Positions 12,407 through 34,831 are shown, counted from the first letter of the stretch. The stretch is 41,710 nt of DNA from a virus (IMGVR_UViG_3300050119_000083:1-41710), one strand, 5' to 3'. Numbers and translations are program-made. The notes: generated by a model from the sequence alone, not told the origin.

Positions 12407-13666
12407 TCACAAACTATCAAGGGTCGCAACCGACCACTCCCCGCGGGGCCAGTAGTATCCGAAAAGTGCATCAATTCTGTCTATGGGCTGATCAGTCCCG
12501 GGTTCGTAGCAAACAAGGCTGCGCAGCGAACACCGATCGAACTCATGACGCGCTGCTTCAACAACACCCTTGCCACCCGGCGGCATCCAAAGCGGAGCAA
12601 TGACGAGCGTCACTGCGTCGCGTTGGAATGCGATCGACTGACGATAGGTCACGGAAGCATTGGCGAACGGAGTGACAACCGCGTTGTTCGCCGGAGACGC
12701 CGTGACGGTCATGTACGCCTGAGCAGTGTAGGGAAGACTGGCGTATGCGACCTGAGAAGCAGGCGGTATCAATGCCGGATAGATCGGGATTGACGTGGCG
12801 CCGGACGGGACATTGGCGGTAACGGCAAACTGCCGCGCCAAGCCGGTTGAGGCGAACATGGTCCGGTTGACGGCAATAACACCAGCGATAGTGATAATAT
12901 CGCCTTGGTTGAGCGTGCCAGACAGAGCCGAGATAATAATGGCGGTCCCGGTCTGGTTGGCGCCGCTCACCGTCGCAGAGGTCGCCGATCCCGTCGTATG
13001 CTTGATGACGGTCTGATCCCGGAACATATCGAATCCGAGAGCATTTTTCATCATGCCGGTACGGAATTGCGATGAAATCGTTGTTGCCGGATTGAACTGA
13101 CCGGCAAGCGAGGTCACCAGCTTGGCGTCGGTATGTGGATCGTTGGCGAGCTTGCGCGCGTCCATCGTTCCCATATCGGGAGCCGAGTTGTCGTCAAGCA
13201 ACGCGCCGGCATTGAGCACCGGAGCCTGATTGATTGACAGAATGTTGTTATTCGCGTCAACGTTAGCCGTGGCATTACAGATCGCGCCTTGGCTCGAAAA
13301 CATCAGCGTTTGCGCGATATTGCCGGCGAGCTTGTTAATGCGCGGCATGATGAAGCGTTCCGCATAGTCCTCGATCGACAGCGTGCGTTCCGCCGTGGTG
13401 AAGGCGATATCGACGTGTCTCTGCGTGGAGACCGTCAGCACCACCTGTTGCTCGATCGTATCCTGCAACGAAATGCCGGGTCCATCGGTCACCGAATAGT
13501 CGTTCGGAATGCGAATGCGGAGCTGCGCGCCGATCTTGGCACCCTCAACACCGAACCGATCATCGTAATCACGACTGACCGACATTAAGAACATATTGGA
13601 GTTGAGGAACAGCGGGACGGAATAACGGGTGATTTGGCTCACCGTAAGAAGCGAGTTTCCAGGCAT
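12407..13666 (-). CDS. Major capsid (coat) protein, P22 coat type
   Basis: A 419-aa protein of the P22 coat protein family, judged by length and pattern: an N-terminal NSLLTVSQITRYSVPLFLNSN stretch, an RIPNDYSV element near residue 52, then QHVDIAFTTAERTLSIEDYAERFIMPRINKLA (about 84-115), which fits the HK97-fold spine helix region, and later repeated beta-rich parts (TGTAIIISALSGTLNQGDIITIAGV) like the inserted I-domain area. The C-terminus has FQRDAVTLVIAPL, as in related coat proteins. The scaffold gene precedes it, in the usual order. A 232-base leader separates the two, so the coat gene may have its own expression control. Confidence 0.85.
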   Translation of the reverse strand: MPGNSLLTVSQITRYSVPLFLNSNMFLMSVSRDYDDRFGVEGAKIGAQLRIRIPNDYSVTDGPGISLQDTIEQQVVLTVSTQRHVDIAFTTAERTLSIEDYAERFIMPRINKLAGNIAQTLMFSSQGAICNATANVDANNNILSINQAPVLNAGALLDDNSAPDMGTMDARKLANDPHTDAKLVTSLAGQFNPATTISSQFRTGMMKNALGFDMFRDQTVIKHTTGSATSATVSGANQTGTAIIISALSGTLNQGDIITIAGVIAVNRTMFASTGLARQFAVTANVPSGATSIPIYPALIPPASQVAYASLPYTAQAYMTVTASPANNAVVTPFANASVTYRQSIAFQRDAVTLVIAPLWMPPGGKGVVEAARHEFDRCSLRSLVCYEPGTDQPIDRIDALFGYYWPRGEWSVATLDSL

Positions 13667-15193: not shown

Positions 15194-15485
15194 TGGGAAG
15201 AACTCTAAGTGTAGCAGACATTGACCATGGAGCAGGAGCATTAGTAGGAAGACGCCGCGCCTCTATCAGCTGATCGTTGACGGCAATCAACCGTTGCCTG
15301 GTTTCAATCAAATCAAGACTAGCCAGAACAAACGCACGCTGTATCACTTCCAACTCGTCCGCGGCAGTAAGCAGCGACTCCCTATCCTGCCCTTTCAACT
15401 CACCAGCAATAATCCGCAGCAGATCAAACGAATTCGATGTCTCGTTAATGATGCGGCTTGTGGTGACGAAGGGGGATTCGGTCAT
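15183..15485 (-). CDS. Small helical hypothetical protein (100 aa)
   Basis: A 100-aa protein whose ATG overlaps the stop of the portal gene by four bases (ATGA). It is mostly helical with a leucine/glutamate pattern (LLRIIAGELKGQDRESLLTAADELEVIQRAF, then LDLIETRQRLIAVNDQLIEARR) that could form a coiled coil. The last 20 residues overlap the next gene. No family is recognised. Tight coupling to the portal gene suggests an assembly or virion role. Confidence 0.6.
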   Translation of the reverse strand: MTESPFVTTSRIINETSNSFDLLRIIAGELKGQDRESLLTAADELEVIQRAFVLASLDLIETRQRLIAVNDQLIEARRLPTNAPAPWSMSATLRVLPNDR

Positions 15486-17668
15486 TGGGCGCTCCCATTC
15501 GTCGATCCAGGATTCAAATCAGCATCATTAAACTGCGCGATCGTGTCGTAGAGGTGCTGATGAGACATCTTTTCCAAGTCATGCTCCATCTGCGCCTTTT
15601 GCTGCGGCGTCAGCATGACCTCGGTCAAGAACCTGATCTGCGCTTCCATGCGTTTGGTATCGGAATCGAACGCTTCTATATTGTGCCGCTCGTCTCGGCC
15701 ACGCACCTTAAGCTTTTCGTCCGCCAATTTGGTCATCAGCTCGCCATTTAGCGCCGTTAGCCGCTGTATTTGTTGCTGAATGGCCAAAAGCTGCGGATTT
15801 GCACCGTCATCGAACAAATACGGCTTGCTCTGCTTGATTTCTTTCTTAATCCGATCGGCAATTTCCTGCGCCCCGGCAAAATCACCGTTTTTAAACAGCA
15901 AATCACCGATAACGCCAACCAATTCCATGTTTTGCTTGAGAATATCGACGCCAGCGTCCCATGCCTGCTGTCTTTGGGTCGCGTAGTTCGGTCCAGGATC
16001 GCTCAAGACCTCATATTCGCCGACTAAAGGATTGAAAATGATCTCTTCGGCGGTATCCGTCTCTTTTTTGGTCCTTTGCATTGCCTCTTTGGCGTCCGGA
16101 TCGATGGTGATGATCTTTTTGCTTAAGTCTTCACCTTCGACGTGCAAAATTCGCTTGGTGTCGTACAGCTTCGGATAGATTCCGATCAGCTGCTTACCGA
16201 GATATCGGTACATATCGTACTGATGCTCAGTGAAATGGTAGGTCGCGACGTCACCCTGACGTTGCCGCGCATTGATTGCCGTTCCTGACGCGGCGCTCTG
16301 CTGGTCCTCCATGCCTTTCTGGCCCTGCCATTGGCCAGTGACCATCATGTTCCAGCGTTCGGCGTCCTGCATGCCCTGCGCAAAGACCGGAGCTACCTGC
16401 GGCGGCTCCTGACGCTCGGGCTTGGCGACAGCGCGACCTTCCTCTCCTTCGTCTTGATACCAATCGTTATAAGGAAGATAGGCATAATCTTCTATATTGG
16501 CGTTTTTCCAAACGTCCTCATTCATTTCGAAAGCAGCAGACGGACCAACATACGGCGTCTTTGATTGCAACGCTCCGAATTGAACCTGGCCTGATGCGTT
16601 GTAGTTCAGCATCTGCTGCGGCGAGATTTGCGACCGCGTATGTCCCTTGCAGTCCATCTTGCCTTCGATGACCGTCTTAATGCCGTAGCATGGAATAATC
16701 GGGATATACTCACCGATCCAGCGAGTTTTCTCTTTATCGCCACGCTTGAGAATGCAATCGCCACCGATCAGATACCAATTGACGGCTTGCGTAATCACAT
16801 CGCGATATTGGCCATCGATCTCGCCGTTGTCGATTTGCTCGATGACTTTATCGACCAACTCCTTGCCAGACTGCTCTTCCATTTCGTAACGATGCCCAGC
16901 GAACGTGGTGCCATCATCTTTCTTGAAGGAAATCAGTTCGTCGTTCTTGGCTTCACGCTCGTAATACATCACTACAAGCACATGCTTGTCAGTGAGCCAA
17001 AGAACATCTTCTCCTAAAGTGGACTTGCCAACCTTATCCTTGAACTTAGGATGTTCACGATTGAAGCGATCCCGAGGCACTTTGTCGAAGATAAAGCCGA
17101 ATCCAGCATCCGACCCGTCCGGTTCCTTAACGTCAGGATCGAGATAAACCGCACGAGGATCCGGCGCCGCCTTGATGTAAACGTCCTGATCGAACGACTT
17201 GGTATCGACAAACGCCGTCTCAATAAACAGATAACCAAAGCCGCCGTCGACCTGTTGGGTAATGACGTTGCGGTAGGCGATAGTCGCCGCCGAGATATAT
17301 TCTGTTCGATCAACAAGGGCCTGCATGCCTTCCGCGGCATCGGCCGTAGCACGACCGCCTGTTGCTCGCACGCGAATTGATGCCTTGTTCTGCATCGACT
17401 CGTTGATCACCAGCCGATTATGCGATTCCGTTATATTGATGGTCAGGCAAGGCTTACGCTTTGTATTTCGGTCCGCGTAAATCTTATCCGGCCATCCCCA
17501 GTGATTGCGATCGTCCTGGTGAGCAAACTTGGTGTCATCCAGACTTCGCTTATAAGCCTCGTCGTACCAAGTCTTGCAGCGCAAGTACCTGTTTCGAGCG
17601 CGATTAAGAATGCGCTTGTCGCCGGTCAGTGTCGGATCGTCATCGCCCTGGTCGGATGGATAAGACAT
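15482..17668 (-). CDS. Portal protein, P22 gp1-like
   Basis: A 728-aa protein with the size and order of P22-type portals. The ATG at 17668 overlaps the terL stop (TAATG), so it is preferred over a TTG 15 bases upstream. Recognisable parts are RYLRCKTWYDEAYKRSLDDTKF near residue 30, NHWGWPDKIYADRN, LTINITESHNRLVINESMQNKASI, and the DPRAVYLDPDVKEPDGSDAGFGFI element near 190, all typical of this family. A long helical C-terminal half (QQIQRLTALNGELMTKLADEKLKV) would form the crown/barrel. The portal forms the dodecameric ring through which terminase packages DNA and to which gp4-like binds. Confidence 0.85.
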   Translation of the reverse strand: MSYPSDQGDDDPTLTGDKRILNRARNRYLRCKTWYDEAYKRSLDDTKFAHQDDRNHWGWPDKIYADRNTKRKPCLTINITESHNRLVINESMQNKASIRVRATGGRATADAAEGMQALVDRTEYISAATIAYRNVITQQVDGGFGYLFIETAFVDTKSFDQDVYIKAAPDPRAVYLDPDVKEPDGSDAGFGFIFDKVPRDRFNREHPKFKDKVGKSTLGEDVLWLTDKHVLVVMYYEREAKNDELISFKKDDGTTFAGHRYEMEEQSGKELVDKVIEQIDNGEIDGQYRDVITQAVNWYLIGGDCILKRGDKEKTRWIGEYIPIIPCYGIKTVIEGKMDCKGHTRSQISPQQMLNYNASGQVQFGALQSKTPYVGPSAAFEMNEDVWKNANIEDYAYLPYNDWYQDEGEEGRAVAKPERQEPPQVAPVFAQGMQDAERWNMMVTGQWQGQKGMEDQQSAASGTAINARQRQGDVATYHFTEHQYDMYRYLGKQLIGIYPKLYDTKRILHVEGEDLSKKIITIDPDAKEAMQRTKKETDTAEEIIFNPLVGEYEVLSDPGPNYATQRQQAWDAGVDILKQNMELVGVIGDLLFKNGDFAGAQEIADRIKKEIKQSKPYLFDDGANPQLLAIQQQIQRLTALNGELMTKLADEKLKVRGRDERHNIEAFDSDTKRMEAQIRFLTEVMLTPQQKAQMEHDLEKMSHQHLYDTIAQFNDADLNPGSTNGSAQ

Positions 17669-19032
17669 TAAACACTCATCCAACCTGTTCCGTCGCCAGG
17701 CTCATGTGAGACAATGCCCGGAGCGCGCAATACCCGTTTAACGACCTTATGCGTCATGGATGGGAACAACTCCGTCAACGCCCATACCAAGGCATCCACG
17801 CGATCAGGCGAAGCATCGCCCGCCAAGCCGTTCGGCCCGAAATTCACCATTTCGTCTTCGAGCGCCGAAAAAGTCCCGACATGACTGATACGGCCTTGCT
17901 CGTAGAGCGCGGCGATCGGTTCGGCTCGCGTCCATTTACCGCGAGAGGCATGTACTGACTTGAACGGCGCTGTAGGGCGCACAGCTCGCACAGTAGCCTC
18001 AACCATCTCTCCGCCGTTATTGGTCTCGCCGACAATGCAGTCGCCCGAATAACGGTCAAATCCCGCAACCGCCATGCGCGCCCAGCCATTCGGGCTTTCT
18101 CGGCAAGTCAAATCATCGATAACATAGCCGCGGCCATCCTCACCAACGGCAGCAACAATGATGCCGGTCGCTGCGCCATCATCGGCCATTTCGTTCTTCT
18201 TGGCCGCCGGATCGATCGCTACCACGACCCGTCTAAGGGCGGGCACCTGATTGGGCTTGCGACGGTCCCGATCCAACGCCACACGCGTCCATAGCGCGTC
18301 GGGTACGTCATCGAGGATTTCGGCTGATAGTTCCTGCCGTCCTAACCGTGTCCCGGCGTACTTATCCGTGATTGTCTGTAGGAATGACGATGCGAGGTTA
18401 GCCGCATTATCGCTGGTCACGCCGCGCGTAATAACGGTGGTAGAGGCGGCTAATATTTCTCGAAGAATTGCGATTGGCCGAGGTGTCGTCGTGATGATCT
18501 GGCGCGGCCGTGATCCTAAACGCAGGCCAAACTGCAATTGATCCCAAGTCTCGCGCGCATAACGCCACTTCGCGAGTTCGTCCCCCCAGGCGCAATCGAA
18601 TTGAGGACCACGGAGTTGATCGGGCTCGGTCGCGTTATAGCCATATGCGACTGCGCCGGTATGAAACTCAATCCGAATGGGTTTCTTGGTGATACGCGGT
18701 CTTTGATAGCTCGGGAAAACGGAATAGATACCGCTTTGACCAAAGACCATGACTTCTTCAAGATCTTTTTGAGTCTCGGCGATCAGCGCAATGCGACTAG
18801 CACGCTTAGTAGTAACTTCTTCTCGCACCCATTCAGCACCGCAGCGCGTCTTGCCGAAACCACGACCAGCAAGTACCAGCCATGTCAGCCAATCGCCCCT
18901 CGGCGGTAATTGATTATGACGGCCTATCTTTGTCCAATCCCATTGTTCTAGAAGTTCCGGCGCAATCAGCTTATCGAGTTCGGCTTTCTCCTTCGGAGTT
19001 AACGCCGAAATGTAAGCAAGCGCATCGTTCAT
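17668..19032 (-). CDS. terL: Terminase large subunit
   Basis: A 454-aa packaging ATPase/nuclease. The ATPase has Walker A AGRGFGKT (residues 55-62) and Walker B FDCAWGDE with acidic pair D151-E152. The nuclease has VAIDPAAKK (D274), an acid in IVGETNNGG (E336) and SPDRVDALVWAL (D413), the three-acid pattern of RNase H-like terminase nucleases. The LAGRGFGKTR..AEWV form is that of the COG5323-type terminases that I associate with alphaproteobacterial phages. It precedes the portal gene with a one-base overlap. Its own ribosome site is weak; a 55-aa ORF ends ten bases upstream. No standard terS lies directly before it. Confidence 0.92.
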   Translation of the reverse strand: MNDALAYISALTPKEKAELDKLIAPELLEQWDWTKIGRHNQLPPRGDWLTWLVLAGRGFGKTRCGAEWVREEVTTKRASRIALIAETQKDLEEVMVFGQSGIYSVFPSYQRPRITKKPIRIEFHTGAVAYGYNATEPDQLRGPQFDCAWGDELAKWRYARETWDQLQFGLRLGSRPRQIITTTPRPIAILREILAASTTVITRGVTSDNAANLASSFLQTITDKYAGTRLGRQELSAEILDDVPDALWTRVALDRDRRKPNQVPALRRVVVAIDPAAKKNEMADDGAATGIIVAAVGEDGRGYVIDDLTCRESPNGWARMAVAGFDRYSGDCIVGETNNGGEMVEATVRAVRPTAPFKSVHASRGKWTRAEPIAALYEQGRISHVGTFSALEDEMVNFGPNGLAGDASPDRVDALVWALTELFPSMTHKVVKRVLRAPGIVSHEPGDGTGWMSV

Positions 19033-19403: not shown

Positions 19404-21587
19404 CTAGCTATAGGCCAGGGTCAGAATGACCGGGCCGGTGGCGTCCGACACCTTATAAGTCAGGTTGCCGGAACCATCATTCGATACCGATACGGCGTTA
19501 CCGAATAGATCGGTCGCAGGGGAAGATAACAGGAGAGCACCGGCCGCATATGTGAAGGTGAAGGTGCTTATCGACGCCCACGCGATGATGACGTAGGAGG
19601 TCGAGCTTTTTTCAATTTTGATCTGGTAAAAGTCCGCGGCAGCGCCGCCATGGTACGTTTTCGAGGCGTAGGTGATGGCCGTCGCGCCAGAGAACGCGGC
19701 AATTATGGCCTTGTAGCCGACGGCGCTCGGCAGCGGGTTGAAGCTGGCGTCAAAATAACCGAAGTCGGAACTGTCCATCACTAGGTTGTAGGGCTGAAGC
19801 GTCACGCACCCGAGGATTATGAGCGCGAGCGCCTGCCGCATGTTAAAGACAGCGGTGGTAGTAAAGGAATTGTTGCAGTTAACGACCTCGTAGCTGAACT
19901 CATTGTAGGTCTGCGGCTTGCTGCTGCTGGCCGTCACGAACGGCGGCACAAGAGCGTTCATTGCCCATTCCGGCGTCTGGGCGCCAGACAATGTGCCGCT
20001 ATACGGATGGAAGGCGATCCCGGCTTGGTTGGCCAATGTTGTGGAGTCGCTGAGGTAAGAGGCGATAAAAGTGTCCGGGGCGATGTAGCCGGTGCCGCCC
20101 GCCGTGACCACCGCGCCGGGAATGATGGTCGCGCCCGGCGCCGCAGCGAGAATCGCCGCCACCGTCTGATCAACCAATGCGGCAAAGTTCGCCGCGCTTG
20201 CCGCCGGTGCCCACGAATAATTACCAGCACCGTTTGAGATATTTTCCTCGTTCCATATCTCGTAGATCATTTTCGTTGCGCCGTAACGGGCGGCAACGGC
20301 GGCGGCGTAGGTCGCAAAGGCAGTCTTACCGGCGGTATCGGTCGGAGCGGTGAAGTAGGAACTTTCGTAGAGGGTGTTGCTGTAAGCGAGAGCGACGTTT
20401 ACGGTAAAACCTGCCGTCAGCAGGCCGTTCGCACCGTTGATGTAGGGGTCGCCGAAAGACGTACCGGCACCGCTGCCGCTCCAGACATAAGTGCCCTTCG
20501 TCGTCGGCTCTATCTTCTGCCAATCCACGGCGTCGATACGCACTGCCGACACGCCTAGATATTGCAGCATCGTCACGTTCTGCGCCGGCGTGATCGTCGT
20601 GGTGTTGTTGATGTTCGTGTGCGTGTTGATCCCGAACTTCGGGGCGGTGATCGATCCACCAGCCGCAAGCGCGCTCGACGCAAGAACAACCGGATAGCTG
20701 TTGATGCTATCGACGGTAAGAAAGGCATTGATGGCGGTGGCAAGTACGGCCATCTGCGCATCGGTTAGACCAGCGCCGATGAAGGCCGCGCTGTACCGCG
20801 TGGACGTGAATTGATCGGCTCCTGACGTATCATTATAGGCACCGATCAAGATGCTCTTGTTCGGCAGGTAGGTTGATGGCTCCGCGCCGCTAGTCGGCGA
20901 CAATATGACGTTATCGTTGAAGTAGGCGCTCTCATTGCCGCTGGAACCCCGACGGCTGCACGCAATGAAACCTAGCGGGTTTCCGTTCAGGGCTGGACCG
21001 CCCGCAATAGTGCTGTATGCCTCGTTCAGCCCGCTATAGAACGAATAGAAACCGGCGCTGGCGAGGTTCTGGAGCAGTGCTCCGTCTGCGTTCGAGGTGG
21101 AATAAACCGCGCCCATTAACGAAGTCGTGGTGCCGCCGGTGACGTAGAAACCCATGCTCGCGGAGTTCAGCGAATAATTCGCACCACCCGCCGTCGAGGG
21201 ATTGAACTGCGTGTCGATGTAGCCGGTCGTCCCATCTCCCGTATAACCGGCGTTCGCCGCGAAGGTCATCGTGCCGTGGACGACGCCGGTATATTTGGAG
21301 CTAATTAGGTTCGTTAGCGCCGTGGCCGTATCTATCGCGTCGAAGATGTAAAGCGCATCGAGCAGAGGCCAGATGGCCGCATTGACAAGCGTCGTAATCA
21401 GGGTTTGGTACTGCGCAAGGCGAGCGCCGGTCGGTTGCGTTGCCAATCTCGCCAAGAACTGAGCGATAGCGGCAGCAGCAGTCGGAGCGGGAATGGTAGT
21501 AAATCTCTGCGCCAATGCCGATCTGTCGAAGCCCAGGGCGGCAACACCACCAAGCAGCATGCGCCGTGAAAGTGCGAGGCGCTTCAT
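19404..21587 (-). CDS. Exported lectin/glycoside-hydrolase-like protein (727 aa)
   Basis: Residues 1-27 form an export signal with a twin-arginine-like start (LSRRMLLGG) and cleavage near ALA-Q. Residues about 100-290 resemble a LamG/ConA-like lectin domain of phage type (GVVHGTMTFAANAGYTGDGTTGYIDTQFNPS). From residue 315 a TIM-barrel glycosidase pattern follows: FGINTH, LQYLGVSAVRID, IYEIWNEEN (E447 as presumed acid/base), FHPYS (527-531) and TYNEFSYE (E563 as candidate nucleophile). This fits clan GH-A enzymes such as GH39/GH5-like. The substrate is not readable; host polysaccharide is likely. The gene is coupled (ATGA) to the upstream pectate-lyase-like gene and ends before the terL gap. 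The role as a depolymerase is inferred. Confidence 0.7.
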   Translation of the reverse strand: MKRLALSRRMLLGGVAALGFDRSALAQRFTTIPAPTAAAAIAQFLARLATQPTGARLAQYQTLITTLVNAAIWPLLDALYIFDAIDTATALTNLISSKYTGVVHGTMTFAANAGYTGDGTTGYIDTQFNPSTAGGANYSLNSASMGFYVTGGTTTSLMGAVYSTSNADGALLQNLASAGFYSFYSGLNEAYSTIAGGPALNGNPLGFIACSRRGSSGNESAYFNDNVILSPTSGAEPSTYLPNKSILIGAYNDTSGADQFTSTRYSAAFIGAGLTDAQMAVLATAINAFLTVDSINSYPVVLASSALAAGGSITAPKFGINTHTNINNTTTITPAQNVTMLQYLGVSAVRIDAVDWQKIEPTTKGTYVWSGSGAGTSFGDPYINGANGLLTAGFTVNVALAYSNTLYESSYFTAPTDTAGKTAFATYAAAVAARYGATKMIYEIWNEENISNGAGNYSWAPAASAANFAALVDQTVAAILAAAPGATIIPGAVVTAGGTGYIAPDTFIASYLSDSTTLANQAGIAFHPYSGTLSGAQTPEWAMNALVPPFVTASSSKPQTYNEFSYEVVNCNNSFTTTAVFNMRQALALIILGCVTLQPYNLVMDSSDFGYFDASFNPLPSAVGYKAIIAAFSGATAITYASKTYHGGAAADFYQIKIEKSSTSYVIIAWASISTFTFTYAAGALLLSSPATDLFGNAVSVSNDGSGNLTYKVSDATGPVILTLAYS

Positions 21588-22195
21588 GGTGCGTACAACA
21601 GATTACCGATCGCATCCGTCAGAAGATTGCCGCTGGCATTCCCAGCCGCATAGGTCGTGCCGCTATTGTAGGCGACAGCCGAACTCCAATCGCTCGGCGA
21701 CGAGGACGGCGTATTCCCATGATTGGTGGCGACCAACGAAACATAGAGAGTCGAGCTGTAAATAACGATGTCGCCTATGGCATAAGACTTACCACTGTTA
21801 TAGGCGTTGCCCCCGCGCAAGTTTCCGGGAGGATCAAAAAAGATCGGATAGGATGTTTTGTAATTCCCGGCTGGGCAATAGACAGCATTGGCGCCATTTC
21901 CCGCAGTAACCAAGGTACCAGCTTGATTGTGCGTAAAGGCATAGTCAATCGCGGCCTGGATCACTGCTGTGCTGTCAGTCGTGTCTGTGGGGTCGGCACC
22001 AAACTCCAGAATGTTGATGCCGTGGTCGTTGGCCCGAGCAGCCGGCGTGCGCGTCGTGGAGCCGCCAGTAGCGTCATATGGAACGGTGCCGTTATATTGC
22101 GTGCAGGTTGAGCCGGAAGGACAAGCCGCAAACACAGGACAACTGATAATTGTCAGTACAGCCGTGAATAGAACGCGCCTTAGAATATTTAGCAT
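21584..22195 (-). CDS. Exported protein with truncated pectate-lyase-like start and a carbohydrate-binding-like end
   Basis: The ATG at 22195 overlaps the end of the upstream gene by seven bases; an earlier TTG is less likely. Residues 1-23 form a signal peptide (hydrophobic core, cleavage after VFA). Residues about 58-80 (HGINILEFGADPTDTTDSTAVIQAAIDYA) match the start of Pectate_lyase_3-type beta-helices used in tail spikes. The following helix turns are missing. Residues about 130-175 (NAYNSGKSYAIGDIVIYSSTLYVSLVATNHGNTPSSSPSDW) look like a chitin-binding type 3/CBM5-12-like module. At 203 aa it is too short for a working beta-helix, so it may be a truncated or domain-swapped spike or a targeting subunit for the next gene's hydrolase. 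Confidence 0.6.
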   Translation of the reverse strand: MLNILRRVLFTAVLTIISCPVFAACPSGSTCTQYNGTVPYDATGGSTTRTPAARANDHGINILEFGADPTDTTDSTAVIQAAIDYAFTHNQAGTLVTAGNGANAVYCPAGNYKTSYPIFFDPPGNLRGGNAYNSGKSYAIGDIVIYSSTLYVSLVATNHGNTPSSSPSDWSSAVAYNSGTTYAAGNASGNLLTDAIGNLLYAP

Positions 22196-23085
22196 GAGGC
22201 ACTCGTTGCCCAATAAGCATACTCATTGTGACACACGTTGGTTTGCTGAGCAGACGAGAAGCCACTCGGCCAAATACCTACCTCACCGATATTACCGTAG
22301 ACTTGAACGCCTGCACTAATATCCCAACTGTTTCCGAATGCCCCGGTGCCGGCATTCACGGTAACAGCCGAGCCATCAACGTTCGCTGTACTGGCGGCAC
22401 CACTGAAAATACCCTGCACGGCATGCCACGCGCTGTCCGCAGCAGTAAAGGTTCCGCTGGTCCCAGCATACAAATTCATCGTATTTGCCGAACCATAGAA
22501 CCATAAGCCGTTGTCGCTGGCTGCTTGTTCAAATATCGTTCCGTTGCTTGTAAAATTCCCGGTACGCTTCGTAACAGCGGAAATCGTGAAAGGTTGAGCA
22601 ACCGAAGTCGTGGATACATTGTATAGGTAATAACCATTAACACCTGTAAAGACCATTACGGGATAGCCGTTCTGACCACTCGCCAAGTAGGCAGGGCCTT
22701 TTGTCGGACTGAAAGATTTAAGGTGATATCCATTTCCGGTCTGGTCGTATAATTTAGAAACAACGCAGGCGACCGCACAGGCCGGCGCCGCCGCTGCCGT
22801 AACGATATCGAAATTGCCGTTCGAAAGAATGTTTATTGTGCTGCAAGTTAGCCCGGTGGCGGCATCGCAGAGATCAACTGCCGGATTGCTTCCAGTCGCA
22901 TAAGCGCGATTATATCCACGGAAGCCATACCAAGCCTTTGCGCTGCTCACCACATCGCCGGGGCCGATATAGCTAGACGGCGGCGCCCGCGGCGCCCCAA
23001 AGTTGACGATTGGCGCCAGCAGTCCCGCTTGGGCTACGCCGCAGGACAGAGCAGCGAGCAGGACAATAGATAGAAACTTTCTCAC
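22189..23085 (-). CDS. Exported LamG/arabinofuranosidase-catalytic-like protein
   Basis: The GTG at 23085 overlaps the upstream TGA (GTGA); an in-frame TTG four codons earlier is the alternative. The product (298 aa) has a signal peptide (VRKFLSIVLLAALSCGVAQA). Residues about 35-110 (AKAWYGFRGYNRAYATGSNPAVDLCDA, then SKLYDQTGNGYHL) resemble the ConA-like fold of GH54-type arabinofuranosidase catalytic domains, with the LYDQ(S/T)GNG-HL signature. The C-terminal half (PFTISAVTKRTGNF, NIGEVGIWPSGFSSAQQ) continues as LamG-like. Six or more cysteines in the mature part would suit an oxidising compartment. Binding of host carbohydrate is likely; catalysis is uncertain. Confidence 0.65.
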   Translation of the reverse strand: MRKFLSIVLLAALSCGVAQAGLLAPIVNFGAPRAPPSSYIGPGDVVSSAKAWYGFRGYNRAYATGSNPAVDLCDAATGLTCSTINILSNGNFDIVTAAAAPACAVACVVSKLYDQTGNGYHLKSFSPTKGPAYLASGQNGYPVMVFTGVNGYYLYNVSTTSVAQPFTISAVTKRTGNFTSNGTIFEQAASDNGLWFYGSANTMNLYAGTSGTFTAADSAWHAVQGIFSGAASTANVDGSAVTVNAGTGAFGNSWDISAGVQVYGNIGEVGIWPSGFSSAQQTNVCHNEYAYWATSASC

Positions 23086-24083
23086 GATGTAGTCCAAGTA
23101 CCAACATAGGTCGGGCTTAGATAATGAGTGCTGTCCCGCCCAACGATGCAGATCATATCGCCGACTGCGCCAGCACTGGTCAGCGTTCCTGTCCCGGCCG
23201 TGCCATAGCCAGTGCGCGCGGTCTTTTCGTAGTAGGCGCTTGAACCGATCGCGCCGAGCGTGATGATTGATGAGACGTTATCGTCATTCATCACACAAAA
23301 CTGATAACCGGCAGCGGGGACCGGCGGTGTCACCGTGCAAGCAGCGGTGCAGACAAAATAACCATCTGGCGCGGTGAGCGTGTTGCCGGTGCTTGATCCT
23401 GTGGCTAACGGAGCCAGCGCCCAACTGCCGACAATTTGATAATTCGTGCCGTCAGACACAACTCGATAGCACTGACTAGTTGTGATTGCCCACGAGGCCA
23501 GCCCACCGATGGTCGAAGTCACAGGCGTGAGCTTCTGCGTGCCCACACCGATATTGCAGACATCGGCGAACCAGCCAGCAGTAAAGACGCCAGTGCCGGC
23601 CTGCGCTATCGTGGGTGTTTGTGCGCCGCTATTGCTCAGATCAACAAGATAACCGCAATCGCTGCCGGGGATGGCGTAGTTGCTGCCGGTGCCAGCGGCA
23701 TCGACCAGCTCGACAGCCGCAATCGTGCCGGTGGTCGTTATCGCGCTGCCGCCAGTGGACGCGGCGCAGCCTGCGGAGATCGAAGTGACGGTGCCGCCAG
23801 CACTTACCACACTACAAACACCAGCAACGCAGGTAATCGTCGAGGTGTCCCCCTCAACCACGCCGAATTGCGCATTGGTGCCTTTTTGAACTGCGGGCGC
23901 GCCGTCTGAGCGGAGAAAAGTCGCGGCCGAGCCGTCAACCGCTACGGGGCCTGCAGTGCCCGTAGGATTAGCTCCGGAACTAGAGCCACCGCCAGAGCCG
24001 CCATTGACGATGCCGTCGGCCCAGGCTGGCGTGATGAGCAAAAGCGAGCAAATAAGCGCAAGCGTTCTACCGGGCATCCTCAT
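23082..24083 (-). CDS. Exported tail-fibre-like protein (333 aa)
   Basis: The ATG overlaps the upstream stop by four bases. Residues 1-22 are a signal peptide (LALICSLLLITPAWA-D). A Gly/Ser-rich spacer follows, then GPVAVDGSAATFLRSDGAPAVQ and FGVVEGDTSTITCVAGVCSV, short elements common in tail-fibre shafts. The rest is repetitive, Thr/Ala/Gly rich and beta-like, with paired cysteines (VCNIG, QCYRV, VCTAACTV). The family of the C-terminal part is not recognised. It fits a shaft or receptor-binding subunit, but the signal peptide argues for export from the producing cell. Confidence 0.6.
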   Translation of the reverse strand: MRMPGRTLALICSLLLITPAWADGIVNGGSGGGSSSGANPTGTAGPVAVDGSAATFLRSDGAPAVQKGTNAQFGVVEGDTSTITCVAGVCSVVSAGGTVTSISAGCAASTGGSAITTTGTIAAVELVDAAGTGSNYAIPGSDCGYLVDLSNSGAQTPTIAQAGTGVFTAGWFADVCNIGVGTQKLTPVTSTIGGLASWAITTSQCYRVVSDGTNYQIVGSWALAPLATGSSTGNTLTAPDGYFVCTAACTVTPPVPAAGYQFCVMNDDNVSSIITLGAIGSSAYYEKTARTGYGTAGTGTLTSAGAVGDMICIVGRDSTHYLSPTYVGTWTTS

Positions 24084-24475
24084 TGGACGTCAACGTACAA
24101 TGTATCGCTCGTAGTAGCGCAGGTCGCCTGGATTGCGTCTGACGGGATGAACGGCCAATAGCGGGTATATGATCCGCCGGCTAAAAGCAGAATGGATTTC
24201 CCTTCCGTTGCGGATCCACTGCCGATGTAAACCCAACAACTATCGCTGGCGTTGTTGTTCTCGATGGTAAGGGCTTGGCGCTGGATCGTGGTGCCTAAAT
24301 TCGATGTGAGCACCGTCTGAAACGCACCGCCCGTAGTAATAACCGCCGCACTATTGAGGGTAGAACGATTGATTGGCGCGCCCGATACCGTGACGCCTGG
24401 AGGCTCGATAGGCTGGCCCCATGCGGGAGCTGCAAGAAGCGCAGCACACAGCAGCGCCGCAAATATCTGCCGCAT
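24080..24475 (-). CDS. Small exported protein (131 aa)
   Basis: A 131-aa protein with AAGGAAG four bases before its ATG and a signal peptide (MRQIFAALLCAALLAAPAWG). The mature domain (QALTIENNNASDSCWVYIGSGSATEGKSILLLAGGSYTRYWPFIPSDAIQATCATTSDTLYVD) has the pattern of a small jelly-roll-like beta-sandwich, with two cysteines that could pair. Similar small domains occur in phage head or tail decoration proteins. Its stop overlaps the next start (ATGA). A 13-bp inverted repeat lies between it and the preceding 500-aa gene. Confidence 0.6.
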   Translation of the reverse strand: MRQIFAALLCAALLAAPAWGQPIEPPGVTVSGAPINRSTLNSAAVITTGGAFQTVLTSNLGTTIQRQALTIENNNASDSCWVYIGSGSATEGKSILLLAGGSYTRYWPFIPSDAIQATCATTSDTLYVDVQ

Positions 24476-24496
24476 GGCTCTTCCTTTTGATTAATT

Positions 24497-24558
24497 GGCG
24501 GGTGTTCGGGTTGGAGGTGCGGAGCCTCGGGGAAGGAGGCCAAGGCCGAACACCCGCC
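24497..24558 (-). terminator. Strong intergenic hairpin between two exported-protein genes
   Basis: A perfect 13-bp inverted repeat GGCGGGTGTTCGG (24497-24509) and CCGAACACCCGCC (24546-24558) encloses 36 bases. It lies just after the stop of the 500-aa gene and before the ribosome site of the next. There is no U-tract directly after the stem on the minus strand (TTAATC follows), so it may be a partial terminator, an RNA-stabilising 3' end or a processing site. Confidence 0.6.
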
Positions 24559-24583
24559 TTAGAGGGCCGTGCGCCCCGCTAAC

Positions 24584-26086
24584 TCAAGGCTCGGCGGACG
24601 CCGAGATAATGCCAGTCGCAGACGACGTGCCCAAGCTCATCCACTGGTTGATGGTGCCAGCCGCGCCAACGGTGGTTGACGCACCTTTGAACATGAACCC
24701 GTTGGTTGAGACCACGGACGCCAAGGCCGTCGGCAACGCCAAACCTGTCATCGCGGCGACGGAAGTTTCCGCCACCTGCACGAAGACTTGGAAGCCATCG
24801 GTAAACTTGACGAGAGGAACAATCCGCATGGTGACTGGGAAGTTCACCGTGCAGTTGAGCGTGCCAGTCGTCACGTCGGCGCATACTCCGTTGTACGACA
24901 GCCCAAGGCTCTGTTGCTCGTAGTTGAAGTACCAGTAGGATTGCTGCAATACCTGTTCGATAGCAGCAGGACGCCGATCGAAGCTGGTCGGGGAAATCAC
25001 TCCGGCCGGCAGGCTGGCTGTTGCCATTGACGGCTTGGCCTCAAGCTGCATGCCGTTGATTTCGATCCAATCGGTCGAAATCCCCGAGGTCAAAACGGGC
25101 GCCCAGCAGATTGATACGCTGACCGATTGCACCAACGTCGTAGTGCCGGGGATGTAAATCGGGATCGGCGCATAGACCGCATAGCGCGTCCACGTCGTCG
25201 AGCCAGGAATGGTCGCAACGCCCGCAGCCACCGTGCCCGTAGTGCCAGGGGACACGCCAGCGATTGCCCTGGTCATGTTGGTCGGGCCGGCCGAGAGCAA
25301 GCCCACATCGCCAAGAGCAAACAGCGATCCGTTGGCACCGGCAAAGCCGAGCGTGGCCTGCGTGGCAACGGCATCATTGGCCGACGTATAATCGACGTTG
25401 ACGGTAAAGGCACCGTTAGCCGCCGACATCCCCGACCCGTTGGACTCATAGAACGAGAACACCGCATTGTTGCCAATGAGCGGCGCTGACGCGACTTTAT
25501 CGAGCGTTTGGCCAGTGCAGATAAGGCCCGCCGCGCCGCTGGTCGTCCGCGCGATGCGAAGCGCCTTGGTGTTGTTGATGCCGGGAATAACGGCGGTCGC
25601 CGCAGTGCTGTCGATCGTGACCGTCACGCCGGCAGCAGGAGCAATCACCCACCAACGATCCGCCGTGATAACGGCCGCGGTAGGCGACAAGGTTGCTAGG
25701 GACGTGACGCCCTTGGCCGTGCTCGACACCTGGGCAAGATTGGTGGTCATATCGCCACCAATCAGGCGATTGATCGAATAGCCAAGCAGGCTGGACGGGA
25801 TTGTCACGGTCTGCGGAGGCGAACTGCCGGTCTGACCAGTATCGGCCGGGATCAATTCATTGCCGGTAAGCGCCGAAGGGCCGGCGGGGACCGTCTGCAC
25901 GCAATTGAGCGTGCCTTGCTGTCCGGTGACGCCACCAACAGCGGGACTATTCGGATTGCTGGACGCGCAGAACGCGGGCGATCCGACGATGGGATAGGTG
26001 AAATAATTACCGGCTGCGATGGCAGCGGTAGAGACAGCCGCCAGCAAGCCGACGGCAAGCAAACCCCGAGTGCGGGTTTTCATCAT
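24584..26086 (-). CDS. Exported tail-fibre-like protein (500 aa)
   Basis: A strong ribosome site (AGGAG four bases before ATG) and a signal peptide (RGLLAVGLLAAVSTAAIA-A) mark the start. After a linker with LIPADTGQ, residues about 110-350 look like a carbohydrate-binding-like beta-sandwich (TADRWWVIAPAAGVTVTI, ALRIART, WTRYAVYAPIP, WIEINGMQLE), a pattern frequent in alphaproteobacterial phage fibre proteins. The part near 365-390 (DRRPAAIEQVLQQSYWYFNYEQQS) followed by a beta-rich end matches the usual end of such fibres. It is the first of six coupled exported-protein genes and the first large product after the late promoter candidate. Confidence 0.65.
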   Translation of the reverse strand: MMKTRTRGLLAVGLLAAVSTAAIAAGNYFTYPIVGSPAFCASSNPNSPAVGGVTGQQGTLNCVQTVPAGPSALTGNELIPADTGQTGSSPPQTVTIPSSLLGYSINRLIGGDMTTNLAQVSSTAKGVTSLATLSPTAAVITADRWWVIAPAAGVTVTIDSTAATAVIPGINNTKALRIARTTSGAAGLICTGQTLDKVASAPLIGNNAVFSFYESNGSGMSAANGAFTVNVDYTSANDAVATQATLGFAGANGSLFALGDVGLLSAGPTNMTRAIAGVSPGTTGTVAAGVATIPGSTTWTRYAVYAPIPIYIPGTTTLVQSVSVSICWAPVLTSGISTDWIEINGMQLEAKPSMATASLPAGVISPTSFDRRPAAIEQVLQQSYWYFNYEQQSLGLSYNGVCADVTTGTLNCTVNFPVTMRIVPLVKFTDGFQVFVQVAETSVAAMTGLALPTALASVVSTNGFMFKGASTTVGAAGTINQWMSLGTSSATGIISASAEP

Positions 26087-26163: not shown

Positions 26164-26349
26164 TTAGTTGGTTGGCTCTAAGCCGATAAACGACTGAGCA
26201 ATAGCCTTCGAACGATCAACAAAACCCCACCGCACATCGTCGGTAGCGTGATCAATAATTAGTCTGGTGAGCTTAGACCCATGGACGACGGCTTGTCCGC
26301 CGTTCCATGTGACCCAGACTTCAGCATCATTTAATTTGATTGTGTTCAT
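26164..26349 (-). CDS. Small hypothetical protein (61 aa)
   Basis: The ATG overlaps the stop of the upstream gene by four bases (ATGA), which supports translation. The 61-aa product (MNTIKLNDAEVWVTWNGGQA, then LTRLIIDHATDDVRW) has a beta-alpha character and no known motif. A 6-bp stem (CGGCGT/ACGCCG) lies in the 77 bases between it and the 500-aa gene. Confidence 0.5.
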   Translation of the reverse strand: MNTIKLNDAEVWVTWNGGQAVVHGSKLTRLIIDHATDDVRWGFVDRSKAIAQSFIGLEPTN

Positions 26350-26657
26350 TTGTTTGATGCCGCATTCTTCGCCATCAGCACCGCGACAGCCTTGGATCGC
26401 TGCTCGTCGGTCAGCTCAGCGAGGCGAATGGGATCCTCATCGTCATCACCAACAATCGCCTGCGGCACCTTGCCATCCAACCGATCGGCAATCTCGCGAA
26501 TCGAGTACGCCTCGCCTTTTATCAACAGCTGCTGTGCATTCCAGCGCAGCGAACCTTTGGGATGAAAAGCAATCTCACCGTCCGCTAACGCCTTAGCTTC
26601 CATCCGCAAAGAATCGCGGAAGGGCTTGTCACGCTGTTGACCCCTGTGAACGCCCAT
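26346..26657 (-). CDS. Small phage protein with DKPFRD...IADRLDGK signature; possible terminase small subunit
   Basis: The ATG at 26657 is taken as the start (103 aa); an in-frame TTG at 26711 would add 18 residues, and neither has a clear ribosome site. The protein reads RDKPFRDSLRMEAKALADGE, then YSIREIADRLDGKVPQAIVGDDDEDPI, then LTDEQRSKAVAVL. This signature recurs in small proteins near terminase genes in alphaproteobacterial phages, as far as I recall. Here it is the first late gene, 7.6 kb from terL, with the exported-protein block in between. It is the best terS candidate in the window, at low confidence. Confidence 0.5.
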   Translation of the reverse strand: MGVHRGQQRDKPFRDSLRMEAKALADGEIAFHPKGSLRWNAQQLLIKGEAYSIREIADRLDGKVPQAIVGDDDEDPIRLAELTDEQRSKAVAVLMAKNAASNK

Positions 26658-26728
26658 TTGAGATGCTAATCGGTTGAAATCCAAAGGCCGTGCGGCTCTT
26701 ACAGAACGCAAATCGGGATACTAGGTTG

Positions 26729-26757
26729 ATTTTGGAGCTAACTGTGACGGTTGTCAA
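26729..26757 (-). promoter_or_regulatory. Candidate late promoter
   Basis: On the minus strand a perfect TTGACA (26757-26752) is followed, after 17 bases, by CAAAAT (26734-26729; four of six -10 bases). It sits in the short gap after the putative late regulator and directs transcription into the structural operon. This is the best sigma-70-like pair found in the window. Confidence 0.5.
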
Positions 26758-26762
26758 GAGCA

Positions 26763-27374
26763 TTAGGCCACCCGCACCCGCCGCCCGTCGGCGTGGGCCG
26801 TCCGGCCCCGCTCGACCTCCGTCAGATCGGCGCTGTACGGGCCACCCGAAGCAGCCCAGGCGCGCAGCCGGCTCGACCCTCCCCTCGGCTGCCAAAGGTC
26901 AGCCAACACGCCCAGCGCCGTCCATAGACGATCTGCAACACGGCGGGGGCTGGTGCGGCCAACGTCCGGGCCAAGGAGCGCGGTACACTCCAAGACGGTC
27001 TTTTGCCAACAGACCACAAGTAGCACGATATCGCGATCGAGCGGGTAGAGGGCGCCCTTCACCTCCCTAACCACGTCCGCGGCGGCGAGGAGGTGCGGGA
27101 TGGGGGGCGAGCCGGGAAGGCCGGCGCCTCGAATGCGGTCGAAGTCGATTGCCCCGCCATCGGATCCCCTCACCGTGTCCCAGGCTGTGCGGAGTTTGTC
27201 GGCGGCTTCCCAGCGGCGATGGTCGATCTGGCCGCGCCGGGCCATGGCGTCGATGGTATCGACGACCCTGACCACCTGGTCGGTGGTTCCTGGGGAAAGG
27301 GGCGAGGCGACGGTGGCGCGGACGAGGGAGCGCCTACCGTGAGGCTTAGCCGAACGCCGCTTTTTTCTTGACAT
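26763..27374 (-). CDS. Putative late transcription regulator (203 aa)
   Basis: A 203-aa basic protein with AAAGGAG eight bases before the ATG. It starts SRKKRRSAKPHGRR. Residues about 50-140 (DHRRWEAADKLRTAWDTV, GAIDFDRIRGAGLPGSPP, LLAAADVVREVKGALYPLDRDIVLLVV) resemble DUF6456-like or RinA/ArpU-like regulators of alphaproteobacterial phages, in which a degenerate helix-turn-helix follows (here about ARRVADRLWTALGVLADLW). It is the last early gene and lies directly before the late promoter candidate, the usual place of an antiterminator or activator. The gene is more GC rich than its neighbours, so spurious opposite-strand ORFs arise. The regulator role is inferred. Confidence 0.5.
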   Translation of the reverse strand: MSRKKRRSAKPHGRRSLVRATVASPLSPGTTDQVVRVVDTIDAMARRGQIDHRRWEAADKLRTAWDTVRGSDGGAIDFDRIRGAGLPGSPPIPHLLAAADVVREVKGALYPLDRDIVLLVVCWQKTVLECTALLGPDVGRTSPRRVADRLWTALGVLADLWQPRGGSSRLRAWAASGGPYSADLTEVERGRTAHADGRRVRVA

Positions 27375-27447
27375 CGCCGGGGCTCCTTTGGGGGCTCCGA
27401 CGGGCTTGGGTGCGCTTGGGTGGGGTAGGTGATTTGGGGAGGGGAGG

Positions 27448-32233: not shown

Positions 32234-32409
32234 GCTGACACCTTTCTCGCCCGAGCAATCAGCTCTTGCGCCGATTGATATTGTGCCTCTGCAACTTTTC
32301 CTCGGCAGAGGAAGTCTTTTTGCTCAATCAGCTTGTCCGCATGCCTGCACACCCGATTTAGAAAATTCTCCATGTCGATCACAAGAAGAAGAAGGTCGGA
32401 TTTTGTCAC
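32227..32409 (-). CDS. Small helical protein between methyltransferase and helicase (60 aa)
   Basis: The start is GTG at 32409, overlapping the stop of the methyltransferase gene (GTGA), and the end overlaps the helicase start by seven bases. The 60-aa product is one or two helices (LLLLVIDMENFLNRVCRHADKLIEQKDF). No family is recognised. Overlap at both ends is good evidence that it is translated. Confidence 0.5.
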   Translation of the reverse strand: MTKSDLLLLVIDMENFLNRVCRHADKLIEQKDFLCRGKVAEAQYQSAQELIARARKVSAC

Positions 32410-33434
32410 GCGGCCACACCATCAGATTGATCTGCAATTTCAAGTTCCGGAAATGGCGATTTGTCGTCCTCTAATTCAAGTCTTGTCTGCTCTTCTTCTT
32501 TTCTTCCTTCGTATGCGACTTGAATGTTTTTAAGTGCCTGTCGGTAGTATGATGCCTTTAACTCAATGCCGATTGCTTTCCGATTATTTTGTAAGGCACC
32601 ATAGACTTCGCTACCAACGCCCATGAATGGAGTGATTACTGTTTCTCCTGGATTGCTCCAAAGCGTGATAACTCGATCAATCACGTCAAGCTGTAAGGCG
32701 TGAACGTGCTTTTCATCTTCCTCATCTTTCGCCTGTCGAAAAGGAAGTACACGACCAATCCTAACGTCATCCCAAAATGCGGAAGCATACTGTCGCCATA
32801 TCCAATGAGAATAGCGATTTTCAATTTGGTTCCCGGTCCAGCCGCGCCACTTTAGTAACTCAGCTGGCATTTTGCGTTCGCCGGCATATTCCATCAGGCC
32901 AGTTGGATGCGTAATAGGAATTTTGTTTTGGCCCTTGCGGCGAAACACCAAGAGATAATCCGCCGACGCCACGCTGCAACGCGAGGAATCCTCGACAAGC
33001 GAGCGATGCGCCAAATTCTTGGCCATCGTCCGATTGCGAACAGCTAGCGGCTCTTTCCAAATTGCGTAGCGCGCAATGAACTTCCATCCCTCACGCTCAT
33101 GAAGTTCAATAATATCTCCGGGGAAATCAATAAGGTGATCTGTCCCTGAATTTCCTGACGGCACATCCATACAATGAACGGCAGTCATGCGGCCTGGAAG
33201 TGTCAGTCGCGCTAGCTCTTGCACGACAAACGAGTAATGCTCAAAAAATTGTTCGTAATTAATGCAGTTTGAAAGATCGCGTTCAGAACTAGAATAACAA
33301 AATAACCCCCCAAACGGTGGAGAATAGATTGACAGATGAACCTTCTCCGACGGGAAAGATCGCATCACTTCAATGCAATCGGCGTTATAAGCCGCATAGC
33401 GATCAGTAAGTTTTTGGTCGATAACTAAAGCCAT
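32406..33434 (-). CDS. DNA methyltransferase, beta-class, probably N4-cytosine or N6-adenine
   Basis: A 342-aa methyltransferase with motif order of the beta class: catalytic SPPF (38-41) comes before the SAM-binding motif TPFMGVGSEV (268-277). ALQLDVIDRVITLWSNPGETVITPF and the following AIGIELKASYYRQA are typical of the family. SPP[FY] is most common in N4-cytosine enzymes, but N6-adenine cannot be excluded. The target site cannot be read. It overlaps the SNF2-like helicase gene by ten bases, so the two form a pair. No restriction endonuclease gene lies alongside. Confidence 0.85.
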   Translation of the reverse strand: MALVIDQKLTDRYAAYNADCIEVMRSFPSEKVHLSIYSPPFGGLFCYSSSERDLSNCINYEQFFEHYSFVVQELARLTLPGRMTAVHCMDVPSGNSGTDHLIDFPGDIIELHEREGWKFIARYAIWKEPLAVRNRTMAKNLAHRSLVEDSSRCSVASADYLLVFRRKGQNKIPITHPTGLMEYAGERKMPAELLKWRGWTGNQIENRYSHWIWRQYASAFWDDVRIGRVLPFRQAKDEEDEKHVHALQLDVIDRVITLWSNPGETVITPFMGVGSEVYGALQNNRKAIGIELKASYYRQALKNIQVAYEGRKEEEQTRLELEDDKSPFPELEIADQSDGVAA

Positions 33435-34831
33435 GTCGGTGTTCCTTCTTGTTCTCGGAATGCGATGCTTCGATCAACGCCAATGGCGTCGTTCATGTGC
33501 TTTATCAATTCAGTAAACATTTGGTTGGCGGCAGAGGCTTTGCGTTGGAGATTGGCGAGAACATCTTTTTCGCCTTCTGTCGCGATAATATCGGATATAA
33601 CCTCTCGCTTCTGACCAAAACGCCAGCAACGGCGTACACTTTGGTAGTATGCTTCAAAACTATGTGTTGGGAACGATACTGAATGTGCACAGTGCTGAAA
33701 GTTAAGACCCCAAGCACCAATCTTTTCCTTGGTAATCAAGATGCGTGATTTGCCATCAATAAAGGCCAAGAATTTTTCTTCTTTTGCCCCATCGTCGTCA
33801 TTGCCACTGATTTGAATTGCGTCTGGAACGAGAGATTCCAGCTTATTTCCCTCGTCATTTAATTGGCACCAAATAATAGCTGATTGTCCAGTGTCATTGA
33901 CAAGCTTTGCTGCCACTTCACAACGTTCATCGATAGTTCGACGACGTTCCTCGCGCTGCTCACGCAAGCCAATGGCCGGAAGAGCAAATAACATTCCGTC
34001 AGGATTAGTTCTAGAAATTACCTGATGTTGTCGTTCAACTAAAGGCAGCAACAGAAATTGGCCGTCATCGAAGCCAAGATCAGACGGCTTACGTACCGCG
34101 CGTGACCATGAACAAACCCACTTCCAAAACGGCTCTTCAGCATGGCCCTTGAACCGCCATTTTGCATTATCGTCTAGTTGTGAGAATTTTTTGCTGCCAT
34201 GACGATAAACAGATGGTTTGATCGAATTGCCTTGGTTGTTTTTAAAAAATCTAGACAGCATATCCATGTAACCGAGATAGCCAAGGGCTTCGCTACTGGT
34301 TCCTAATTCAATGTATTCATTTGGACTTGGTGTAGCTGTACAAAGAAGCCGATAGCGCATCTTTCGCATGAACTCAGTTATTTCTTGTCGGCGTACTCCA
34401 TCAAATGATTTTAGGATTGCACTTTCGTCGCAGACCGCGCCTGCAAAATCGTTTGGGTCAAAATAATGCAATCGCTCATAGTTGACGATATTGACACCGC
34501 TATGAGGAATACCAAGTTTTGAACGACTGCACTCAATACCGAATTTAGTTCCCTCCCGAATAGTCTGTGAACCAACTGCAAGCGGTGTTAAAATTATTAC
34601 TGGCTTATTTTCTTTTCGAACAACATTTTCAGCCCAAACCAATTGCATCAATGTCTTGCCAAGTCCGGTATCGGCAAATAGCGCAGCTCGACCTTTTTGA
34701 AGCGCCCAGTTCACCAAGGATCGTTGAAAGTCAAAAAGGCAATCAGGCATGTAAATAGGATCGAAACCGTCATACGTGCCGAGTTGGGTCTTTTTGTTTA
34801 AAAATGTTTCGTAGTTATATTGAACAGTCAT
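33425..34831 (-). CDS. SNF2-like helicase paired with the methyltransferase
   Basis: The ATG at 34831 overlaps the stop of the small upstream gene (ATGA) and has GGGGAGAG just before it; an upstream GTG would lie inside that gene. The 468-aa protein has Walker A ADTGLGKT (53-60), DESA in place of DExx (135-138), CTATPSPNEY (motif III), and QSVRRCWRFGQ (motif VI), all of the SNF2 branch of SF2. SNF2 ATPases act as translocases on double-stranded DNA. Its coupling to a methyltransferase suggests joint action on phage or host DNA, for example protection or remodelling during replication. Confidence 0.8.
   Translation of the reverse strand: MTVQYNYETFLNKKTQLGTYDGFDPIYMPDCLFDFQRSLVNWALQKGRAALFADTGLGKTLMQLVWAENVVRKENKPVIILTPLAVGSQTIREGTKFGIECSRSKLGIPHSGVNIVNYERLHYFDPNDFAGAVCDESAILKSFDGVRRQEITEFMRKMRYRLLCTATPSPNEYIELGTSSEALGYLGYMDMLSRFFKNNQGNSIKPSVYRHGSKKFSQLDDNAKWRFKGHAEEPFWKWVCSWSRAVRKPSDLGFDDGQFLLLPLVERQHQVISRTNPDGMLFALPAIGLREQREERRRTIDERCEVAAKLVNDTGQSAIIWCQLNDEGNKLESLVPDAIQISGNDDDGAKEEKFLAFIDGKSRILITKEKIGAWGLNFQHCAHSVSFPTHSFEAYYQSVRRCWRFGQKREVISDIIATEGEKDVLANLQRKASAANQMFTELIKHMNDAIGVDRSIAFREQEGTPTWL

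Follow-up and report, generated by a model that had tools for sequence, protein, structure and literature searches.

Predicted signal peptides on tailspikes and tail-fibre-like proteins of a P22-like podovirus clade point to a probable assembly after export

The assembly of tailed phages is regarded as an entirely cytoplasmic process, and the tailspikes of phage P22 join finished heads as the last step, also in extracts. Virion proteins with cleavable signal peptides are known from the filamentous phages, whose pVIII and pIII are assembled into particles at the inner membrane without lysis, and which possess no tail. Secreted endolysins with a signal peptide or SAR domain, e.g., fOg44 Lys44 and JG068 gp47, are likewise phage proteins exported by the host Sec system during infection, although these are lysis enzymes and not structural adhesins. 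Bacterial proteins of comparable design have also been described: WceF of Pantoea stewartii combines an exported tailspike-like fold with a twin-arginine signal, but is a biofilm enzyme encoded with the stewartan cluster and not a phage part (PMC7949094), while the Bdellovibrio MAT fibre proteins are tail-fibre-like adhesins in which a signal peptide precedes a conserved beta-rich domain and the tips vary, but function in bacterial predation and are not virion parts (PMC10769870). A lack of signal peptides has been used as support for the phage origin of adhesins (PMC6199706). Here we describe eight genes with predicted signal peptides, six of which form a block at positions 19404-26086, in the viral sequence IMGVR_UViG_3300050119_000083, the whole analyzed stretch of which (41,710 bases) is referred to below as the window. 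Their products include a protein that is an ordinary tailspike by domain but appears to take a new route to the particle; none of the nearest known cases is a tailed-phage virion adhesin, and the full-text literature (open papers, no preprints) yielded no report of tailed-phage tailspikes or fibres with signal peptides.

The window is a P22-like podovirus: it encodes P22-type portal, coat, Hc3 and ejection families (phrog_156, phrog_283, phrog_578 and phrog_598), and a comparison with the P22 genome shows that the P22 order of these genes is kept. Signal peptides were scored by a simple scheme that considers a charged n-region, a hydrophobic h-region and a small-x-small cleavage site, for which five exported proteins of E. 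coli scored at least 9.7, while soluble cytosolic proteins did not exceed 4.6, nor P22 virion proteins 6.7. Eight of the 44 window genes, i.e., the six of the block together with 9424-9891 and 1-675, scored between 8.98 and 12.42, as against 7.5 or less for the remaining 36, and each of the eight opens with a positively charged, hydrophobic N-terminal segment that ends in an A-x-A-type site. The claim of the initial annotation that these eight genes bear Sec or twin-arginine-like signals is thereby upheld. The background rate was six among approximately 605 same-strand open reading frames (ORFs) near unrelated TerL genes, with the nearest clade removed. The eight genes and the one recognized virion-binding domain, with signal peptides as predicted, are as follows.

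1-675, minus strand: gH, exported tailspike truncated by the end of the window; signal score 10.4-11.2, GTG start at 675 with a good Shine-Dalgarno sequence, signal at about 601-675.
13-306 (core about 40-258), minus strand: head-binding domain of gH; phrog_26190, E = 4e-9.
9424-9891, minus strand: gG, small exported protein in the tail-connector module, adjoining the Ad3 and gp14-like genes; signal score 10.72, Shine-Dalgarno match of 6.
19404-21587, minus strand: gF, 727 residues, twin-arginine-like signal peptide at about 21510-21587, SRRMLLGGVAALG; signal score 8.98.
21584-22213, minus strand: gE, exported protein carrying the first part of a pectate-lyase fold plus a CBM5/12 module; signal score 10.74, best start ATG at 22195, three cysteines.
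22189-23097, minus strand: gD, exported, weakly concanavalin-like protein; signal score 11.8, best start GTG at 23085, signal at about 23026-23085, six cysteines.
23082-24083, minus strand: gC, exported protein of 333 residues; signal score 12.2, signal at about 24018-24083, ten cysteines in the mature part.
24080-24475, minus strand: gB, small exported protein of 131 residues; signal score 11.1, signal at about 24422-24475, two cysteines in the mature part.
24584-26086, minus strand: gA, exported tail-fibre-like protein of 500 residues and first gene of the block; signal score 12.42, Shine-Dalgarno match of 5, signal at 26015-26086, mature protein from about AGNYFTYPIVG.

Proteins that fold outside the cytoplasm tend toward paired cysteines. 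Cysteines were counted in non-overlapping ORFs from approximately 30 related loci, the signal calls having been made without using cysteines. An even count was observed in 56 of 60 exported-type proteins that contain cysteine, as compared to 99 of 225 others; with each homologous family counted once, the figures are 23 of 26 signal-bearing families and 59 of 138 families without a signal (p = 2e-5), and two of the three odd-count signal-bearing families are doubtful ORFs. These even counts, together with the co-varying cysteines of gA and gH described below, indicate folding in an oxidising compartment. The possibility that the signals represent chance hydrophobic starts was rejected on the basis of the score gap in the window, the low background rate and the cysteine parity.

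A link to the particle is provided by gH, which is positioned after the gp16-like gene, as is the tailspike gene 9 (gp9) of P22. The family profile of its head-binding domain matches the ‘Tailspike head-binding domain’ of PDB 7EEQ (hmmsearch E = 5e-10, or 3e-6 with the signal-bearing rows only), and also the tail spike chains of 9VYG and 9VYH; this search of solved-structure sequences replaced a fold assignment from AlphaFold, the gH model being too poor for this purpose (predicted local distance difference test, pLDDT, 39). The domain stands at the start of tailspikes from a range of P22-like phages (those of Pseudomonas, Shewanella, Rhodoferax, Xanthomonas and Vibrio among others), including PAE2, X14, PBR31 and VvAW1, and in the view of the PBR31 authors the N-terminal part is apparently what binds the virion (PMC10975493). 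It begins at the initiator methionine, with no signal, in all 16 annotated phages examined, whereas among 40 metagenomic virus loci a clear signal precedes it in 32 and a probable one in two more. The gH protein resembles the P22-type tailspikes (P22 gp9, Sf6, PBR31 and that of Shewanella phage X14) in its position and in its N-terminal head-binding domain of the 7EEQ and 9VYG/9VYH type, but differs from them in the signal peptide that precedes this domain, and in a cysteine pair within it, which occurs in one subgroup that includes the window and in none of the aligned signal-free rows. This pair is complete in 17 rows, absent from 21 and never half present.

The two kinds of spike also differ at their N termini. 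Signal-free spikes open with a sequence of the M-A-S-ILPNG type (MASILPNGK, MATLLPEGK), while signal-bearing ones read ...AFA/QATLLPPGE or ...ADA/ATTLLPNGM, the cleavage motif thus adjoining the ILPNG-type start, so that the predicted cleavage would restore the usual tailspike N terminus. In a weakly resolved tree of 46 rows, in which the signal-bearing rows are nested among signal-free ones, the signal label requires three changes, compared to 15.7 when shuffled, which is consistent with a signal gained before an existing head-binding domain, with a few losses. By its head-binding domain gH is a tailspike, and presumably a virion component; in the exported gH of one relative (L125), a tail collar domain is fused to it.

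Three observations on this family may be added. A glycine-rich insert of approximately 100 residues (306-600) separates the first strand from the core of the gH head-binding domain, and is found in most of loci L150-L165 and absent from L132-L148. The PAE2 tailspike gene (L172:14837-16840) is unannotated in GenBank, where part of it is covered by an annotated antisense ORF. Two Rhizobiales loci, L201 and L202, encode similar tail-protein N termini, one beginning M-AGLWNLSLTQR, while in the other a signal peptide precedes AGLWPLSYSQR, which possibly represents a separate signal gain.

The second adhesin for which a virion role is suggested is gA. All 21 gA homologues retain both a signal peptide and a good ribosome site, yet residues 1-24 are the least conserved segment of the protein (28% mean identity, versus 61-71% over residues 97-400), as would be expected for a signal peptide but not for a docking segment. 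Complete members contain six or eight cysteines arranged in four column pairs, the fourth of which is jointly present in 11, jointly absent from five and never single. The structure model of gA reached a pLDDT of 53 overall, with moderate confidence for the middle domain, and the Foldseek matches comprised, for viral models, phage tail fibres (among the top hits) as well as CenC-like carbohydrate-binding proteins and, for solved structures, several carbohydrate-binding modules. In L002, L004, L006 and L101, the part of gA that follows the signal is shared but joined to quite dissimilar C-terminal regions; such domain swapping would represent the modular style of tail fibres, with a putative anchoring to the virion. 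A genome scan for gA returned a single contig, in a Beijerinckiaceae metagenome-assembled genome (MAG), which itself carries portal and coat genes and is a phage contig, perhaps mis-binned. Searches of annotated phages for gA and gD returned no match, and those for gF only weak matches to one domain.

The initial annotation regarded the block as a cassette inserted between a terS-like gene and terL. This description holds in comparison to P22, where terS and terL overlap while approximately 7.3 kb lie between the presumed terS and terL of the window, although such adjacency is a P22 trait and not a strict requirement for the P22-like group, and the terS assignment lacks profile support. The flanking and reference genes are as follows.

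12407-13666, minus strand: P22-like coat protein; phrog_283, E = 4.9e-49.
15482-17683, minus strand: P22-like portal protein; phrog_156, E = 1.5e-77.
17668-19032, minus strand: terminase large subunit, flanking the block downstream; PF03237, PF17289 and PHROG terL.
26346-26711, minus strand: possible small terminase gene, flanking the block upstream; identified by position only, with a homologue at the same place in L103.

The candidate terS gave no convincing match to Pfam or PHROG profiles. The block is not private to the window phage, and an insertion specific to it is contradicted by the gene-order comparison: approximately 25 relatives with diverged portals (33-73% identical) and terminases carry signal-bearing genes at the same position, with a full or shortened gA directly ahead of terL and, after gA, between zero and three further signal-bearing genes, the set of which varies between phages. 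Many block-bearing records also possess a signal-bearing tailspike at a second locus (L111/L153, L103/L164, L104/L163, L107/L156 and L115/L167), and in two records this tailspike is followed by further signal-bearing genes. Predicted adhesin export is thus a trait of the clade, and occurs at two loci. Among the exported adhesin genes of one relative lies a gene for a protein with multiple membrane spans that resembles O-antigen ligases/polymerases (L106:4632-5699).

A cultured representative is available in Acetobacter phage phiAX1 (LC644973), whose P22-like portal is 33% identical to that of the window. Its tail module contains two adjacent signal-bearing genes between the gp4-like and gp10-like genes, the same place as that of gG. 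The product of 26418-27383 possesses a signal and four mature cysteines, while a GH66 enzyme is annotated from 27492 in a frame that opens at 27387 with MKKIIILALLLLAPCVHA and encodes six mature cysteines. The annotated start of this enzyme (L215:27387-29312) is probably 105 bases late, the signal peptide lying upstream in frame.

We consider it probable that the receptor-binding tail proteins of these phages are made as exported preproteins that join the particle after export. In late infection, gH and the fibre-like gA, along with further adhesins or depolymerases in varying combination (gB-gG), would cross the inner membrane, mostly by Sec and in the case of gF perhaps by the twin-arginine translocation (Tat) pathway. 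Signal peptidase I would cleave the preproteins, leaving gH-type spikes with an ordinary P22-type tailspike N terminus. Folding of the mature proteins, with formation of disulfide bonds, would occur in the periplasm, in parallel with the cytoplasmic assembly of heads and tail stubs. Lysis would then mix both pools, and the head-binding domain would dock the spikes on the tail as the last assembly step. The sequence-based support consists of the conserved signals, the disulfide signature, the head-binding domain, the position of the predicted cleavage at the canonical N terminus, and the cassette location shared by relatives, while actual cleavage, a periplasmic location and docking at lysis are what we infer. 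The wider proposition, according to which the whole clade completes its virion outside the cytoplasm, by Sec/Tat export, periplasmic processing and disulfide formation, and addition at lysis, with a gained signal and cassette-swapped adhesins, is advanced with moderate confidence.

Several points weigh against assembly after export. Extracytoplasmic docking is deduced from the head-binding domain alone, for which a direct profile comparison with P22 gp9 found no link, and gB, gC, gD and gG possess no known virion-binding domain. The models of gA and gH are of low confidence (pLDDT 53 and 39), and the gA fold matches are consequently indicative only. Finally, the cysteine counts of gE and gF are odd (three each), although gF may use Tat and gE seems truncated.

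The same export evidence would be expected if these proteins were secreted and never entered the particle, acting instead as depolymerases and lectins that clear or cover surface sugars on infected and neighbouring cells, for example to prevent re-adsorption to debris or superinfection. Carbohydrate-active domains in exported members (the GH5 enzyme of L117, GH66 of phiAX1, and the pectate-lyase and CBM5/12 parts of gE), and the several block proteins devoid of a virion-binding domain, would suit such a set. We nevertheless regard it as unlikely: gH carries the domain that fixes known tailspikes to the particle, with which the collar domain of L125 agrees, the window shows no further large tailspike gene, and cleavage at the canonical tailspike N terminus would be left unexplained. 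Of the two readings offered by the initial annotation, export followed by incorporation into the particle is therefore favoured by the gH head-binding domain and the fibre likeness of gA, while the smaller proteins might form a secreted set, and could have a soluble role before lysis, e.g., receptor stripping, in addition to or instead of docking.

It is very unlikely that the hydrophobic N termini are uncleaved membrane anchors or assembly segments retained on the virion protein. The score is indeed blind to the distinction between an anchor and a cleaved signal (TolA scores 10.0), but the paired and co-varying cysteines indicate an oxidising compartment, conservation in gA is lowest over this segment, which is not expected of a docking element, and related tailspikes do without it, with the A-x-A site lying at their canonical N terminus. 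Cleavage in vivo is a prediction from sequence, and that the signals represent true export is supported by three independent lines, namely the parity and co-variation of cysteines, the conservation pattern of gA and the gH domain. That the block is lysogenic-conversion cargo altering the host surface in the prophage state is scarcely credible and was rejected, for although it sits between conserved genes, and exported adhesins and glycosidases would fit such a role, an integrase was found in a single one of the 24 records from related viruses (fragments included), which makes lysogen cargo unlikely, a strong gA match occurs in one of 298 family genomes, namely the MAG with the phage contig, and the block shows no promoter excess, its genes lying within, and on the same strand as, the late operon.

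The remaining block genes are less readily assigned. The initial annotation described six coupled genes, of which five overlap, while gA is set apart by 108 bases. Several of the domains it named were not confirmed. The pectate-lyase match is real but covers the fold start only, the lectin-like similarity is weak, and no match to GH-A emerged from the window. Homologues of gB with signal peptides and two cysteines each are present in L101, L102, L104 and L106. Pfam and PHROG searches returned no match for gC. The concanavalin likeness of gD relates to Laminin_G_3 (E = 0.033), and gD homologues adjoin signal-bearing genes in L097 and L114/L115. The gE protein matches PF12708 (E = 5.7e-8) over 52 of 213 positions, i.e., the first quarter of the pectate-lyase fold only, followed by CBM5/12 (PF02839, E = 2.9e-5), and has an odd cysteine number; it is probably truncated, and may represent a truncated or decayed spike. 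Signal-bearing homologues of gG are present in L003 and L008, and the GH5 enzyme of L117 is an exported cellulase.

The N-terminal domain of gF matches phrog_18498 and phrog_26223, and a homologue in L119 (13051-13914) starts similarly, with TRRKLITGAAAL. When compared to the twin-arginine motif S/T-R-R-x-F-L-K, both gF (SRRMLLGG) and the L119 protein (TRRKLITG) deviate from its strict form, and gF is perhaps exported via Tat, as WceF would be by its signal. Twin-arginine-like starts also occur in small proteins encoded near the head genes or before gA of relatives (L122:12884-13342 and L115:9367-9735; SSRRGFLGGLLALVAAPAIVRA and SRRSVIAGLFAAPAIV).

Elsewhere in the window, a gene for a GcrA cell-cycle regulator is located at 38605-39027 (PF07750, E = 5.8e-28), pointing to Alphaproteobacteria as hosts and to possible phage control of the host cell cycle. 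Of the 33 records that contain the head-binding domain, just four encode GcrA, all of them signal-bearing. The clade probably infects Alphaproteobacteria. An N6/N4 DNA methylase gene overlaps a SNF2/helicase-like gene, the similarity being below the Pfam cut-off (32406-34885), and the two could form a modification or counter-defence pair. A cell-wall-hydrolase-like endolysin gene (2941-3480) lies between ejection-type genes.

If the tailspikes of these phages are exported, the last step of their assembly would be extracytoplasmic and disulfide-bonded spikes would be possible, while free spikes could act on the host surface prior to lysis. Signal peptides would then be no ground for excluding virion proteins in metagenomic annotation. 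The availability of phiAX1 in culture makes the question of export and docking directly testable.

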